A stretch of DNA of 64,000 bases, taken from positions 17,146 through 81,145 of the forward strand of contig JAUNLF010000008.1 of the NCBI GenBank assembly GCA_030532405.1, written 5' to 3'. Shown piece after piece: positions 52,433 to 58,297 of the stretch. The translations under genes were made by a program, and so were the position numbers. The DNA comes from Actinomycetaceae bacterium (GTDB taxonomy: Bacteria; Actinomycetota; Actinomycetes; Actinomycetales; Actinomycetaceae). The first letter of the stretch is position 1. Each line of letters starts with the position of its first letter. The notes under the pieces were generated by a model that worked only from the letters and a program-made list of their open reading frames with translations, was not told the origin of the DNA and did no database searches.

Positions 52433-52507
52433 ATGAGCAAGCGAGGCCGCAAGCGCAAGGCACGTCGCAAGAGCGCCGCAAACCACGGCAAGCGTCCCTT
52501 GTCCTAA
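52433..52507 (+). CDS. 50S ribosomal protein bL37
   Basis: A 24-residue, extremely basic protein (MSKRGRKRKARRKS... ending NHGKRPLS) with AAGGAG six bases upstream. It matches actinobacterial bL37, a tiny ribosomal protein first seen in mycobacterial ribosome structures (older annotations: AURKAIP1/COX24-domain protein). Too short for most ORF callers. The following hairpin ends its transcript. Its last 35 bases are duplicated at 56257, on the far side of the inserted cassette. Confidence 0.92.
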   Translation: MSKRGRKRKARRKSAANHGKRPLS

Positions 52508-52520
52508 GCTAAAAGTTTAG

Positions 52521-52548
52521 AAGGCTCCAGGAAAAATCCTGGAGCCTT
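52521..52548. terminator. terminator hairpin after bL37 (left copy)
   Basis: Perfect 12-bp stem AAGGCTCCAGGA / TCCTGGAGCCTT with an AAAA loop, 13 bases after the bL37 stop. It can serve bL37 and the convergent gene. An identical hairpin is at 56305-56332 in the right repeat. Confidence 0.8.
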
Positions 52549-52617
52549 CACTCATTTCCGGGGCCGCACGCCGTCAGTGCGTTGCAGGTGCCACGTCCGG
52601 TCCCGTGCGGTACACCG

Positions 52618-52681
52618 TCAGCGTGCGGTGGGTACCACTTCCGGGGCGCGCAGTTTGATCCGCCCGCCTGTCGCGACTAGG
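52618..52681 (-). pseudogene. 3' remnant of the modBC fusion gene
   Basis: Twenty in-frame codons and a TGA encode LVATGGRIKLRAPEVV-PTAR, the end of the ModC TOBE domain. Compared with the intact gene (ending PTVR) there are four base changes, three of them synonymous. There is no upstream coding sequence in this copy. Confidence 0.85.
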
Positions 52682-52712
52682 GGACTTCGCAGAGCGGGTT
52701 CTTATAGGCGGG

Positions 52713-55646
52713 CTAATCAAGACTGATTACTTTTTCAAAACAATCTAGGTTTGTGCGCGAATGCAGCACTATTACCGCCTGCTTTTTACTGCTCCCGAGG
52801 GCTTGCCTCAAACTCGTTAACTCTTCCCTTTCTTCACTCGGACTGAGATTCCTAAAGGTCTCATCAAGTAGAAGTATCCTTGCAGACCCATCGATGAGCT
52901 GAGAGCGTAGCAACTGTATTCCACTGCTACTGCACTCCTCTGATGCCAGGGGGTCCGTCGACGGAATTATCGTTACATCTCCACTCCTGCTTGCGTCATA
53001 GATGGCGTCGAGCAGGACTGATTTTCCTGCGCCAGTGCTTCCTATCAAAGCGGTGAGCACATTCCCACTATCGATCGAATTAAGGATTTTCCTAAGGGAA
53101 TCTTGAGGAGCTATGTGCGGTGTTCTTGCCAACTCGAATTCTTCGAGCATACGAACCCGTTCCGCGGTCAAACTTACTACGCCGGCATGTTGAAGTGTTT
53201 CAATAGTGGTTTGGAGGCCTGCAGACAGGGTAAGAATAAAGAAAAGAATAGACGCATAGGTTATTTCTGCGGAATAGTTCCAAGGGATTGATATCAATAA
53301 GACTGCGAGACTGTTTAACGTTACGACCAATAACTGTGTTAATCCGCTCTGTAAAGCGTAGGCATTCGTCAACCGAATAGAGTTTCTGATGTAGTTATCT
53401 TCAGAAACTAAGTAAGCTTTCTCGCCAGCAACCCTGAGTTGCGGACTGTTTGGCGCAGACGCTGAGCCTGCTTGCACATTTATTGCACCGATAAACTCGC
53501 CTCGAGCATTGGCTACGTCCGTGGTCGCAGGGATTACAGTCTTTAGACCTCTACGCCAGACGAAGATAGCGAGCGGGAGCGCCGCAACAAAAACTATGAG
53601 AAACGCGGGCGCCCCGATCAGAGTACTCCCAATAAGTAGAACAGAGTGGACCGTCACAAGAGTTACTGAACCTAGTGCGCCAGGGATTTCCATTTGCAGA
53701 CTGGAAAAATCTTCTCCAACACGCCCAACGACAGCGCCGGCTGTTTTGCTATTCGCGAAACGTTCAAGTCGTCCGATAAGTTGATCGTGTAACACACTCA
53801 ATCTGCGAATAGGAACCCTATAAACCGTTATGGATAGCATCAACGAGCCAACGACGACACCCACTAAGGAAGTAGTTGATAATCCAATCATCTCCAACGC
53901 TGTTAGATCATTTTGGGAAATAGATATTGCAAATGCGATTTCTGATGCGCTCAGGAGAAAGGCGCCAAGACCGACCAATAAGAAACGCATGCCAAAAACG
54001 AGTTGAATGGCCCTTAGAAATGTTGCCTTCTTTTTGTCTGGGTCAGGAAGGTAGGTCGAGGGGTCGTGCAATTCCTCGCTGGAGTTTTCGGTGTTTACCA
54101 CCTCGCTACTACTACTTGGTGGCTCAGTGATATTTTCGGTAGCAGTGTCTGGCCGAGCGAAACTAGATGGAACATACTCCAAAGAAGACGCTAAGAGGGA
54201 GCAGGAGTGTACATTTTCCAATACGACTTCGGCTACTACCTCCCGCGTTACAGGATCTAGCGAAGCAAATGAGTTGTCTAAGATAAGCCAGTCTGGGGAC
54301 TCAGAAAGTACCATGGCGAGCGTTAGCCGTTGCAATTCACCCGATGACAGTGTTTCGATTTCCTTCTCTGAACGAGCTAAGACTTCGGGCTGTAAACCCA
54401 TACTTGTAGCCAGTCGTCTAAATTCGGATTTCTGATATGGGTCTGTACCGGCATGCCAAGCTGACAGAATAGACTGCGATATCGCCGGTTCACGTGGCAC
54501 AAATGCAACACCATCTTGACCGGGAGTCGTTCTGAGCAAATCCGCTCTTGCACTATTGCCATCTAGGACCTCAACACTACGGGTATCGGGAGCTATCGGC
54601 GCAGTCTGGGACGGAATAGTTGAAGTGTCTCGTTCAATCTCATACAGGTCGCGCATCATCGGTACAGCAAGTCGTATAACTCGATAGTTCACTACATTGT
54701 TCTGTACTGCTGAATGCAGATAGCGAGCAGCAAGAATAATGCTAATTCCGATGTTGCTTGTGGGCCAAAATAGTGTTCCGACGATGGCAATCAATGTAAG
54801 AACAGCAGTAAGCGCGCCTCTGTCTAAGAAACTGTTCAATACCTGCAATCGCACCCGTGCTCTAAGCAGTGATTCTTCGGTGTTGCGTACACGCGATAAG
54901 TGACTTTTCGCCGCCTCCCAACTAGGAATTCTCTTCCCTCTCGGTAACGACTTAGCTAACCGTTTTATCCAAACTCTGCGCTCCCCCTCTAGCTCAATGT
55001 AACGCTCCCAAAGAGAGCCAATTTTGGCTACGAGTTTGATGCTCACACTTACCAGCGCCGCGATAAGGAATACAGCAAGCACGCCATTTATTCCATAAAG
55101 ATAGAATGATATTACAATGAATAAAACCACCTGCACAGTTGAAATAGCAAAATCAACAACGTAGGCAAATTGACTAATTTGAGCAGGATAAGTCAACACA
55201 ATCTCGTCGATTTTAGATTTTCGAACTTGCACTCGAAAAAGCTTACGAAATCGTCTATAAGTGATCTGCCTGATTGCTACGACGAGTAGCATTTCTTGTC
55301 TTTCCTTTATCAGGAATCCAGCGCTTTCAAGGAGAAATGCGAGCAGTAACAGCGCAATCAGCGACTTACTATAGCTAGTATCGGACGCCAGACTTTCTAA
55401 GCCAATTGTAATGAGTGCAGAACCGAGTATAGACACCGTGCCGGCAAGGAATGTGATCAAGCTGAGGTTTGCGGGCGCTGCCAACAATGCCATCCATCGA
55501 ATCTTCGTTGGGCACTTAGAGTCAAGCAGCTCAAAACGTGTGTATAAATGTTCAATTGACGGCATACGGAACCAAAAAAGTACTTTGTGTTCCCTTAATC
55601 GTGTGAGCATGTTTTTCATTATCGGGGTCTGCCTAGGGATAGCCAC
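52713..55646 (-). CDS. single-chain ABC exporter (TMD-NBD-TMD-NBD) with reciprocally reduced NBDs
   Basis: 977 residues counted from a GTG at 55646; in-frame ATGs at 55619 and 55610 are alternatives. Helices at ~50-120, ~155-210 and ~275-310 form TMD1; ~545-615, ~655-700 and ~770-815 form TMD2. NBD1 (~355-495) has no Walker A but keeps an LSSGE signature (433-437) and Walker B WLILDN with Asn instead of the catalytic Glu (458). NBD2 (~845-977) has Walker A GSTGAGKS (869-876), Walker B ILLLDE (924-929) and the switch His962, but no signature helix. One complete ATP site could form between the halves. AT-rich codons (AGA, ATA, TTA) differ from neighbours. Probably exports a peptide encoded upstream; related exporters serve bacteriocins or CydDC-type thiol export. 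Confidence 0.85.
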   Translation of the reverse strand: MAIPRQTPIMKNMLTRLREHKVLFWFRMPSIEHLYTRFELLDSKCPTKIRWMALLAAPANLSLITFLAGTVSILGSALITIGLESLASDTSYSKSLIALLLLAFLLESAGFLIKERQEMLLVVAIRQITYRRFRKLFRVQVRKSKIDEIVLTYPAQISQFAYVVDFAISTVQVVLFIVISFYLYGINGVLAVFLIAALVSVSIKLVAKIGSLWERYIELEGERRVWIKRLAKSLPRGKRIPSWEAAKSHLSRVRNTEESLLRARVRLQVLNSFLDRGALTAVLTLIAIVGTLFWPTSNIGISIILAARYLHSAVQNNVVNYRVIRLAVPMMRDLYEIERDTSTIPSQTAPIAPDTRSVEVLDGNSARADLLRTTPGQDGVAFVPREPAISQSILSAWHAGTDPYQKSEFRRLATSMGLQPEVLARSEKEIETLSSGELQRLTLAMVLSESPDWLILDNSFASLDPVTREVVAEVVLENVHSCSLLASSLEYVPSSFARPDTATENITEPPSSSSEVVNTENSSEELHDPSTYLPDPDKKKATFLRAIQLVFGMRFLLVGLGAFLLSASEIAFAISISQNDLTALEMIGLSTTSLVGVVVGSLMLSITVYRVPIRRLSVLHDQLIGRLERFANSKTAGAVVGRVGEDFSSLQMEIPGALGSVTLVTVHSVLLIGSTLIGAPAFLIVFVAALPLAIFVWRRGLKTVIPATTDVANARGEFIGAINVQAGSASAPNSPQLRVAGEKAYLVSEDNYIRNSIRLTNAYALQSGLTQLLVVTLNSLAVLLISIPWNYSAEITYASILFFILTLSAGLQTTIETLQHAGVVSLTAERVRMLEEFELARTPHIAPQDSLRKILNSIDSGNVLTALIGSTGAGKSVLLDAIYDASRSGDVTIIPSTDPLASEECSSSGIQLLRSQLIDGSARILLLDETFRNLSPSEEREELTSLRQALGSSKKQAVIVLHSRTNLDCFEKVISLD

Positions 55647-55692
55647 TCCTATTCATATGTAGCTCTTCTTTGACGAGGTCATCGTTTGGGAA

Positions 55693-56073
55693 TCAGTAAG
55701 ACAGTTCTTGAAGCGCTCCTTCGGAGTCGAATTCTGGGGTTGTCTGTGAATGGGCGTGTGCATATATGAGTTCGGCTCCCGCTTGCATTTCAATCGGTAG
55801 TAATACGTGGTTAGCGTGCTTTCTATACTGAAGGGTCCACTCTGGGGTATTTGCCTTGAAAATGAATGTAGGGCAATAAGCGGTCTCTGGGCGGGCCAGT
55901 ATTCTGGCCTTCTCAGATTTAACTTGTGTCCTACTCTTCTTCTCTGAGTACTTCCCATTGTGTGTGTGGTGTTCCTTAGTTAAAGATTGGACTTGCCTTT
56001 GTAGCAGTACATGACCGACATGTTGGTCTTCGGCTTGCTCACTTTCCTCGTCTTCATCTTCATGGATTTCCTT
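55693..56073 (-). other. 126-codon open frame without a start codon
   Basis: Between in-frame stops at 56074-56076 and 55693-55695 this frame is open but has no ATG, GTG or TTG until an ATG near its end (IEMQAGAEL). Composition is protein-like: an acidic start (HEDEDEESEQAED), then FIFKANTPEW, YRKHANHVLLPIE and AELIYAHAHS. After the TGA the same frame stays open for 19 more codons (FPNDDLVKEELHMNRSGYP) up to a TAG. It is in the -1 frame relative to the 27-codon ORF. It may be a decayed gene, a frameshift product or chance; another frame (55653-55958) has an ATG but no binding site. Confidence 0.3.
55980..56063 (-). CDS. 27-residue peptide, candidate exported precursor
   Basis: ATG at 56063 with AAAGGA at six to seven bases, the best ribosome binding site in the cassette. 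The product begins MKMKTRKVSKPKT and ends YCYKGKSNL: nine Lys/Arg, no acidic residue, a single cysteine at position 20. It lacks a Sec signal and a double-glycine site. Position upstream of a peptide-type ABC exporter on the same strand suggests a bacteriocin or signalling peptide. No modification enzyme is encoded. I do not recognise a family; expression is unproven. Confidence 0.45.
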   Translation of the reverse strand: MKMKTRKVSKPKTNMSVMYCYKGKSNL

Positions 56074-56133
56074 TCAAGTAGTACTTCAACTCTGAACGTA
56101 CACACAGAACGGTTCCGTGGGGACGTTCGTCCG

Positions 56134-56162
56134 ACAGTAACCGGAGCGCAGAAATCAGACAA
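56134..56162 (-). promoter_or_regulatory. possible cassette promoter
   Basis: Reading the minus strand: TTGTCT (56162-56157), 17 bases, TACTGT (56139-56134), predicted start near 56127, about 65 bases before the peptide ATG. Two small inverted repeats with TT centres overlap the predicted start: GGACG-TT-CGTCC (56121-56132) and ACGG-TT-CCGT (56110-56119), which could be an operator. Confidence 0.4.
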
Positions 56163-56256
56163 GGCTAATTTGTGAACTGTTTAATATGTGAGAAAAGCCC
56201 GTCGCGTCACTTTGAGATTTGGAATCGGGTCACATGAAAGCTTTTGGGCATAGATT

Positions 56257-56291
56257 GCGCCGCAAACCACGGCAAGCGTCCCTTGTCCTAA
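56257..56291 (+). pseudogene. 3' remnant of bL37
   Basis: The last 11 codons of bL37 including the TAA are present, identical to 52473-52507, without the start or Shine-Dalgarno. The identical hairpin terminator follows at 56305-56332. Confidence 0.9.
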
Positions 56292-56304
56292 GCTAAAAGT
56301 TTAG

Positions 56305-56332
56305 AAGGCTCCAGGAAAAATCCTGGAGCCTT
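56305..56332. terminator. terminator hairpin after modBC (right copy)
   Basis: Perfect 12-bp stem with an AAAA loop, identical to the one at 52521. In this position it lies 70 bases beyond the modBC stop on the minus strand. Confidence 0.75.
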
Positions 56333-56401
56333 CACTCATTTCCGGAGCCGCACGCCGTCAGTGCGTTCTAGCTACCACGTCCGGTCCCGTGCGGTACGCC
56401 G

Positions 56402-58297
56402 TCAGCGTACGGTGGGTACCACTTCCGGGGCGCGTAGTTTGATCCGCCCGCCCGTTGCGACTAGGTCGCGGTTGTAAGCATTCACCGCTACCGTGATCAT
56501 TTCTCCGGTGTCGAGTTTTACGATGGCCTGTTCGCCGTACGGCATGAAAACCATTTGGACGACAGTGCCCTCGGCAACCAGCTCATCGGCGCTGGATGCT
56601 TCGTAGTCTTGCACCGCGACGATCAAGTTCTCCGGACGCACAACTCCTGCCCGAGTGCCCGCTGCGATCCGGTTGGCGCCGGTTAGGTTGATCAGGAAGT
56701 TCGACGTCGGCTTTTGCAACACCTTCGAAGTTGGTCCCTGTTCTACAGTTCGTCCTTCTTCAAGCACGATAATGCGGTCGGCCATCATGGTGGTATCGAC
56801 CATGTCGTGCGTTACGAGGACGGCCGTTGCTTTCGCTTCTCGCACTCGCTGGCGCAATACCAGGCGCAGTGACCAGGCGATCTTGGAATCAACGGCCGCG
56901 AACGGCTCGTCTAACAGCACCAGGTCGGGATCCACAGCGAGTGCGCGCGCAATAGCAACGCGTTGGGCTTGACCGCCCGACAGCTGGGTAGGGCCGCGAT
57001 CCTTCAGGTGCATACACCCAACGGCTTCAAGTTCGGCCAGTGCCCGCTTGTGCGCCTCGGCTTTACCAACCCCGCGTGCGCGAGGGCCGAAAGCCACGTT
57101 ATCGATCACCTTCATGTGCGGGAACAAGTGAGCGCGCTGCTCGAGCCACACGATCGTGGCCGCCCCACTAAAGCTGGTCGAAACCTTGCCCTCATCGGGC
57201 GTCAGCGTTCCGGCGATCATCTCTAAAACGGTTGTCTTGCCGGCACCGTTTGGGCCAACCAGAGCGGTAATGCAGTCCTTCTTAATATCCGCATCCACCT
57301 GAACGTCACGGTCACTAAGCCCACCGCGCACCTCGACCGCATTCGGATTAGATGCGCACACCTCGTCGTCAACATCCAGCTTCTTAAGCTTGGTGATGGT
57401 CTGAAGCGGAGATTCGCCGAGGGCGTCCTCATGCTCGTTAGCTTCCTGGGATTCCAGGCGCTGCTTTGAAAACGCGGATGCAAACGACGTCAGCGCAATG
57501 ACGATCGCTGCAACAACCAGCAAAACCACTGAAAGTGCGAGCGCGGTATCCGTGTCGATCTCGCGTTGCACATAGATTTCCAGCGGCAGTGTTCGAGTAA
57601 CGCCCTGTAGCGATCCGGCAAACGTGATCGTCGCACCGAACTCGCCCAGCGCACGCGCAAACGTGAGCGCCGTACCCGACACGACCGCGGGCAAAGTCAA
57701 AGGAAGAGTGATCTCAAAAAACACTCGCGAACGAGACGCGCCAAGGTTCAGCGCGGTCTTCTCCAGGTCATTTCCACGAGTTCGCAGTGCGCCCTCAAGG
57801 GATACAACCAAAAACGGCATCGCCACAAAAACTTGCGCCATCACAACAGCCACGGTTGTGAACCCGATGTCGATTCCGGCAACGTGCAAGTATTTGCCGA
57901 CCAGGCCGCGTCGCCCAAACGTGATTAGCAGCGCAAGGCCCGCAACCACGGGAGGCAACACCATTGGAAGAGTCACGAGGACCTTCAACGTGCGCCCAAT
58001 CCAAGACTCCTTGGAGCTACCCGTGCCCTGGTGGGCGATAATGTGAGCCAACGGGACGCCCATAACCAGCGACAGCACAGTGGAAATAACCGTGGTACGA
58101 ATAGACAACCACAGTGCGTCTTGGGCGGCTTCACCCGCAAGTAGTGTTCCGAGGTCGGACCAACGCACCTGCACAAACATGCCTATAAACGGCACGATCA
58201 CAAAGATCAATGCCACGGCCGCCGGCACCACTAACCATGGTGCCGGCGTTAGACCATCCGCACGTGCGCGCCCTTTGACAGAGGCGGGACGACTCAC
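56402..58297 (-). CDS. modBC: molybdate ABC transporter permease-ATPase fusion (ModB-ModC)
   Basis: 631 residues; a GTG start overlaps the modA stop (GTGA). Residues ~20-285 are the ModB permease with the inner-membrane coupling motif ARALGEFGATITF. Residues ~305-530 are the ModC ATPase: GPNGAGKTT, LSGGQAQRVAIARAL, LVLLDEPFAAVD, VLVTHD. Residues ~555-631 are a TOBE/MOP-like domain. With ModA it imports molybdate. Fusion of the two subunits is known in some Actinobacteria. Its 3' end is part of the repeat that flanks the cassette. Confidence 0.93.
   Translation of the reverse strand: MSRPASVKGRARADGLTPAPWLVVPAAVALIFVIVPFIGMFVQVRWSDLGTLLAGEAAQDALWLSIRTTVISTVLSLVMGVPLAHIIAHQGTGSSKESWIGRTLKVLVTLPMVLPPVVAGLALLITFGRRGLVGKYLHVAGIDIGFTTVAVVMAQVFVAMPFLVVSLEGALRTRGNDLEKTALNLGASRSRVFFEITLPLTLPAVVSGTALTFARALGEFGATITFAGSLQGVTRTLPLEIYVQREIDTDTALALSVVLLVVAAIVIALTSFASAFSKQRLESQEANEHEDALGESPLQTITKLKKLDVDDEVCASNPNAVEVRGGLSDRDVQVDADIKKDCITALVGPNGAGKTTVLEMIAGTLTPDEGKVSTSFSGAATIVWLEQRAHLFPHMKVIDNVAFGPRARGVGKAEAHKRALAELEAVGCMHLKDRGPTQLSGGQAQRVAIARALAVDPDLVLLDEPFAAVDSKIAWSLRLVLRQRVREAKATAVLVTHDMVDTTMMADRIIVLEEGRTVEQGPTSKVLQKPTSNFLINLTGANRIAAGTRAGVVRPENLIVAVQDYEASSADELVAEGTVVQMVFMPYGEQAIVKLDTGEMITVAVNAYNRDLVATGGRIKLRAPEVVPTVR

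Follow-up and report, generated by a model that had tools for sequence, protein, structure and literature searches.

A trimmed, putative peptide-export operon between 209-bp direct repeats of two convergent gene ends at the bL37-modBC junction of a Gleimia genome

We identified a trimmed, patchily distributed and putative peptide-export operon that lies between two direct repeats, each made of the same two convergent gene ends, in a bL37-modBC junction that is empty in four other Gleimia species. The window, i.e., the whole stretch of DNA that we analyzed (64,000 nucleotides), is on contig C5 of a Gleimia genome of 2.23 Mb in 33 contigs, which is 99.7% complete with contamination given as 1.07%. 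Our preferred account, which we judge to have an even chance of being correct, is that a foreign, trimmed piece of peptide-export DNA, joined to a relative's copy of the bL37-modBC junction, entered by a net single crossover within the junction, and that it works as a peptide gene together with an exporter that uses one ATP site.

Table 1. Features of the cassette and its flanks (positions in the window)
Feature	Position	Strand	Evidence
bL37, complete copy	52433..52507	+	NCBIfam NF047428 ribo_Myco_bL37, 46.8 bits against a cutoff of 30
Repeat R1: bL37 3′ end, hairpin, modBC 3′ end	52473..52681	+	209-nt direct repeat
R1 hairpin, likely common end of convergent transcription units	52520..52549	.	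RNA fold z -5.08 (+), -3.71 (-)
modBC 3′ fragment within R1, last 20 codons and stop	52618..52681	-	differs from the intact gene at 4 sites
977-aa fused double ABC exporter, intact frame, start codon uncertain	52713..55646	-	Pfam ABC_tran, two stretches
Only Walker A match, GSTGAGKS, aa 869-876, second half (no signature match there)	53019..53042	-	motif scan, conservation
Signature LSSGE, aa 433-437, first nucleotide-binding half (no Walker A match there)	54336..54350	-	motif scan, conservation
TPR gene remnant, matching residues 427-498 of 499	55645..55860	-	tblastn 39% identity, E 1.9e-11; genome search E 2e-10
Conserved 27-aa peptide gene	55980..56063	-	64-83% identity over 23-25 residues in three other loci
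Repeat R2: bL37 3′ fragment, hairpin, modBC 3′ end	56257..56465	+	209-nt direct repeat
R2 hairpin	56304..56333	.	sequence identical to R1 hairpin
modBC, complete molybdate permease-ATPase fusion	56402..58297	-	TIGR02141 and TIGR01581 above cutoff

The two repeats, R1 and R2 (Table 1), are identical at 199 of 209 positions (95%), with a spacing of 3784. Each contains, from left to right, the final 35 bp of bL37 (stop codon included), a hairpin of 30 nt and 64 bp from the modBC 3′ end, with bL37 complete only in the left copy and modBC complete only in the right copy. This confirmed the preliminary description of this DNA, which had placed a 209-bp direct repeat of exactly this extent around the cargo, with this content (borne out by the bL37 family match, the strong fold and the alignment of the modBC end) and with one complete copy of each gene; its statement that no recombinase is present also holds for the six cassette and flank ORFs that we scanned with Pfam. 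Hallmarks of a composite transposon were not found either, in that the same six ORFs contain no transposase and the repeats are gene ends present nowhere else in the genome, where a search with R1 returned the R1 and R2 positions only. R1 and R2 are the sole direct repeat of at least 60 bp listed by the repeat finder in the 64-kb window, and in a survey of 464 kb (the window and a 400-kb sample of the 2.23-Mb genome) for pairs of at least 80 bp and at least 80% identity within 40 kb they are the only non-tandem pair, the two further pairs being tandem, 132 and 276 bp apart. The hairpin within the repeat folds far better than shuffled sequence on both strands, and hairpins of different sequence occupy the same position between bL37 and modBC in two other Gleimia genomes (G002 and G003). 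It was not among the listings of a scan for consensus (T-run) terminators; its fold and position would fit a shared terminator of two convergent genes.

As the preliminary description had proposed, we compared the bL37-modBC junction in related genomes, using 11 Gleimia genomes with the source genome included, so that different species are compared here and not strains of one species. In 6 of the 11, bL37 faces a full-length modBC: four of these junctions are empty (G002, G003, G008 and G010, with gaps of 68, 213, 101 and 69 bp and no long frame inside), one holds the window cassette, and one, in a fifth species (G005), holds other cargo, with a 2,103-bp gap containing a 562-aa frame (L059 2741-4429) that to the eye looks like a wall-anchored surface protein, and around which we found no flanking repeats of at least 25 bp. 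The bL37 gene of this species was missed in our first bL37 search and matched by a pattern made for the bL37 end. G010 gave a further bL37-like match, within a different open frame, which we attribute to chance. For the remaining genomes, bL37 and the best modBC match sit on separate contigs (G007 and G009), or the modBC matches are to the ATPase part only (G001, G004 and G006). The segment is therefore present in one genome and absent from others between the same conserved genes, with direct repeats at its borders, and this comparison supports the insertion of the cassette into a formerly empty bL37-modBC junction.

Between R1 and R2 there are 3,575 bp with 47.0% GC, against 58.0% in the remaining window, which matches the lowest stretch of the same size in the window (scanned in 100-bp steps); GC also falls below 53% in places within the first 10 kb. 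The claim that this is a low-GC segment thus stands relative to its surroundings, and the range of 32-38% given for it earlier does not, since 4 of its 60 lines of 60 bp are at or below 38%. A scan for sigma-70 promoters was uninformative (2 sites, against a mean of 4.4 in shuffled sequences). At the other end of the window, positions 552-2423 encode a protein that has a D-glucuronyl C5-epimerase domain and a repeat of the cell-wall-binding type; its neighbors, up to 27310, include genes for polysaccharide synthesis and export, and the first kilobases are lower in GC.

The complete order of the cargo operon is seen in Canibacter and in an Actinomycetaceae MAG, where the genes encode a peptide, a TPR protein (~500 aa), an exporter and an S9-like hydrolase (~560 aa), the last with weak matches to Pfam PF00326 (E 5e-5, just over the cutoff, and 1e-3, under the cutoff). 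The window retains the 27-aa peptide gene, ~71 TPR codons and an intact exporter, and no match to the S9 hydrolase was found in the window genome; by this gene content, the cargo is a trimmed form of what appears to be a peptide-export operon. A candidate gene at 55653-55958 was rejected, as it has no family match and the TPR gene end aligns with a different frame there. The near-complete loss of the TPR gene and the lack of an S9 match in the genome raise the possibility that the cargo is the remnant of an operon in decay. Of 254 columns that are invariant in the other five, the window exporter deviates at 35, the second highest count of the six (others 4 to 67).

A decayed form of the operon is present in G004 (Gleimia sp. 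6138-11-ORH1, placed in the same genus as the source genome), with the TPR gene spread across three short ORFs and pieces of the S9 gene at three places. No flanking repeats of at least 25 bp were found around the G004 fragments L098 and L099, and the main locus (L054) gave only a 30-nt pair at 70% identity, likely by chance. G004 also contains a 379-bp block, 98.9% identical, on two contigs (L054 8195-8573 and L098 6084-6462), which spans the exporter 3′ end and the S9 5′ end, such that the copies are overlapping halves of the broken operon. Beside the G004 exporter, L054 4499-7451 holds genes that resemble a cluster of the lactococcin-972 type: an ATPase, a membrane protein of 631 aa and a small frame that looks secreted.

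Scanning genome contigs with the single exporter sequence returned no relative, and scanning with an alignment of two returned five. Relatives of the exporter occur in Rothia, Canibacter, Nanchangia, the Actinomycetaceae MAG and G004, and further in G039 and the distant G089. At E 1e-30, the exporter is present in 6 of 213 genomes of the family, including the source genome and G004 and with one of the six distant; at E 1e-60, it is present in 2 of 394 genomes of the class, i.e., the window itself and the Rothia record, with no new one. Identity to the window exporter is 50% in Rothia, 49% in Canibacter and 45% in the other Gleimia exporter (G004). In the exporter tree, which came with long-branch and composition warnings and has one of five inner branches supported, Rothia and Canibacter group together despite belonging to different families (support 96/95), and both Gleimia exporters are without a supported place. 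The low GC, the patchy distribution and the higher identity to Rothia than to the other Gleimia exporter support a foreign origin of the cargo, and the patchiness together with the Rothia-Canibacter pair argues for horizontal movement. We found no donor and no genome of the same species. The Nanchangia exporter (L070 4166-7547) is split in two frames and lies near two SagB-like peptide dehydrogenase genes (below model cutoff) and a transporter that is presumably MATE-like.

The peptide gene encodes MKMKTRKVSKPKTNMSVMYCYKGKSNL, and its relatives are in Canibacter, the Actinomycetaceae MAG and G004. Against these three, 40 of the 54 pooled nucleotide differences are at codon position 3. The core of the peptide is KTNMxVMYCYK, and a pattern allowing one mismatch to it was matched in 1 of 396 genomes of the order, the window's own; the NCBIfam models searched with the peptide gave no family match. 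A conserved, small, precursor-like gene of this type is present beside the exporter, by motif, at 4 of 8 exporter loci, and was not found at those of Rothia (which begins at a contig end), Nanchangia, G039 and G089, so exporters of this kind do not always come with it. As far as searched, the loci with the peptide are those with a TPR match.

The exporter, which is 42-49% identical to five homologues, has a signature match in its first nucleotide-binding half and its only Walker A match in the second (Table 1). All eight homologues scanned have one Walker A match per protein, in the second half only. Seven of these eight, one of which is split in two frames, have LSSGE or LSAGE in the first half only, with an extra VTSGE match near residue 80 in two of the seven; the eighth, the distant G089 homologue (25% identity), has no signature match, although absence by this pattern is weak evidence because the pattern missed one of three control ATPases. 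The homologue alignments show conservation of both Walker motifs of the second half and of the first-half signature; in the window exporter, 55 residues separate the second-half Walker A from Walker B, versus 111 in modBC. Compared with PDB, none of the 60 first-half matches listed (of 149) starts ahead of query residue 55, i.e., before the stretch that precedes the signature, and the second half gave weak matches (E 0.005 or worse). These motif positions suggest that the exporter has a single composite ATP site, on which it would run, formed by the second-half Walker motifs together with the first-half signature, and that a second site is lacking. A broader proposal is that these loci represent an undescribed mobile peptide-export system (a ~25-residue peptide with the core given above, a TPR protein, an exporter and an S9-like hydrolase), in which one half of the exporter has lost its P-loop and the other its signature region, in complementary fashion, leaving exactly one ATP site, and which moves between actinobacteria through homology-based capture where genes share their ends, with no recombinase of its own; we regard this as rather unlikely. 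Open-licence papers were searched for the parts of the operon, one-site or degenerate exporters, small bacteriocins, repeat-flanked insertions at gene ends and Gleimia, and nothing among the matches listed resembled this operon.

The differences between R1 and R2 bear on how the cargo arrived. All ten are in the last 120 of the 209 bp, with the first 89 bp identical, a placement with P = 0.003 if differences were uniform (0.016 with the hairpin excluded). Four of them fall in modBC coding sequence, three at codon position 3 and one at position 2, an excess with P ~0.11 given so few. At 6 of the 10 sites R1 has G/C where R2 has A/T, with the reverse at 2 of 10, a composition that would not be expected from AT-biased decay of R1. 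On the clustering, the third-position excess and the G/C pattern together, the modBC end in R1 resembles an allele of some other lineage more than the host's own copy after decay, and the restriction of all ten differences to the last 120 bp suggests homologous recombination of cargo that came linked to a junction from a different lineage. In this indirect way, the clustered differences and the third-position excess support the earlier proposal of homologous recombination; a free circle, the other form of that proposal, was not seen, as the cargo had no match to plasmids (tblastn and blastn), phages (blastn) or viral contigs, and we rejected the idea that it is itself a mobile replicon. Members of the competence family PF03772 occur in both G000 and G004 (and in 10 of 14 control genomes), so that uptake of free DNA is possible.

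Under our preferred account, the starting state would be cargo already linked to a related lineage's version of the bL37-modBC junction. It would then enter the chromosome by a net single crossover within that junction, presumably in the identical part containing bL37 and the hairpin, with the donor being one circle or tandem, or one strand bridging two sister chromosomes. The outcome would be a full 209-bp junction on each side, with both host genes whole. The R1 hairpin reads as serving bL37 and the leftward-read exporter, and the R2 hairpin would serve the leftward-read modBC and probably protects the peptide gene against read-through; since both repeat copies include the shared hairpin, no transcription unit would be left without one at its end. 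The cargo would act as a peptide gene with its exporter, and this peptide would be the likely substrate.

The repeat could also have been made from host DNA alone. Its ends are sharp and it is one contiguous host block, as would result from a staggered double break in which the two strands are nicked at sites 209 bp apart (or each of two sister chromosomes breaks once), followed by fill-in and capture of a foreign fragment, giving a very long target-site duplication whose copies later diverged. The doubled G004 block across the joint of exporter and S9 gene hints that overlapping halves recur in the genus and therefore keeps this explanation alive. Copies that diverged after duplication should not differ so unevenly (0 differences in 89 bp versus 10 in 120 bp), and R1 lacks the AT drift of plain decay in a dead copy, and we consider this route unlikely.

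Integrative elements typically replace the 3′ end of a gene and leave a long identical core, and bL37 is complete in R1, such that an integrase could have used the bL37 3′ end as its attachment site, brought a replacement gene end and later been lost. No recombinase or integrase was found in the six ORFs scanned, however, and the repeat extends into modBC, which is needless for an attachment site in bL37. In addition, the bL37-end pattern, which misses most genomes of the family, was matched in 28 of the 213 searched, and 27 of these 28 have no second bL37 end (the two matches in G007 proved to be one place), leaving the window genome as the only one with two separate copies, so that the bL37 end is not a visible hot spot. 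We consider this explanation improbable. Least probable of all, and in our view very much so, is an assembly artefact that wrongly built into the chromosome either DNA of a second strain or an independent circle of 3,784 bp holding the cargo and a single junction: a short-k graph would permit either an integrated copy or a free circle over the identical first 89 bp, but the contig passes through both copies, which differ at 10 sites, the six ORFs contain no replication gene, no plasmid or phage match was found, and the contamination given for the genome is 1.07%.

Our preferred account, of entry by crossover within a junction carried by the donor, has parallels in known systems. Clusters for export of bacteriocins and RiPPs have a tiny conserved peptide gene adjoining an exporter gene; in gene content, the cargo is similar, with a small conserved peptide gene beside an exporter and an S9-like hydrolase added in complete operons, but there is no modification enzyme between the peptide and hydrolase genes, and the peptide has no NCBIfam match. 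Classical degenerate ATP sites typically keep both Walker A motifs, whereas here the first half has no Walker A match and the second has a Walker A-B distance of 55 residues (111 in modBC) and no signature match. The likeness to heterodimeric ABC exporters with one degenerate site, such as MsRv1273c/72c (PMC12038006) and TM287/288 (PMC5216877), is in the two membrane halves, the two nucleotide-binding halves and the unequal ATP sites, here read from motifs. If our account is true, the cargo is a natural test of whether an exporter can run on a single ATP site when the second is physically gone rather than degenerate.

For the repeats, one study (PMC2884548) describes small variable segments of which 10-18% are flanked by direct repeats, and islands said to spread by recombination in their flanks. 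Like these, the cassette is a short segment between conserved genes, with direct repeats at its base, that varies among relatives; unlike these, its repeat is 209 bp, holds two convergent gene ends and a hairpin, and is compared across species and not strains. Formation of merodiploids by transformation (PMC3784515) involves unequal pairing on sister chromatids, where a donor fragment with a repeated part bridges the chromatids and leaves direct repeats, as may have happened here; that system uses pre-existing IS-remnant repeats and duplicates ~100-900 kb of native DNA, whereas here foreign cargo lies between the copies. If true, our account means that cargo with no recombinase can enter a chromosome neutrally via the duplicated end region of two genes. 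Since repeat-flanked segments are an accepted class, and bridging of sister chromosomes leaves repeats, the arrangement is a variant of the known class of repeat-flanked variable segments, set apart by the duplication of the end region, hairpin included, that two genes share and by the design of the exporter.
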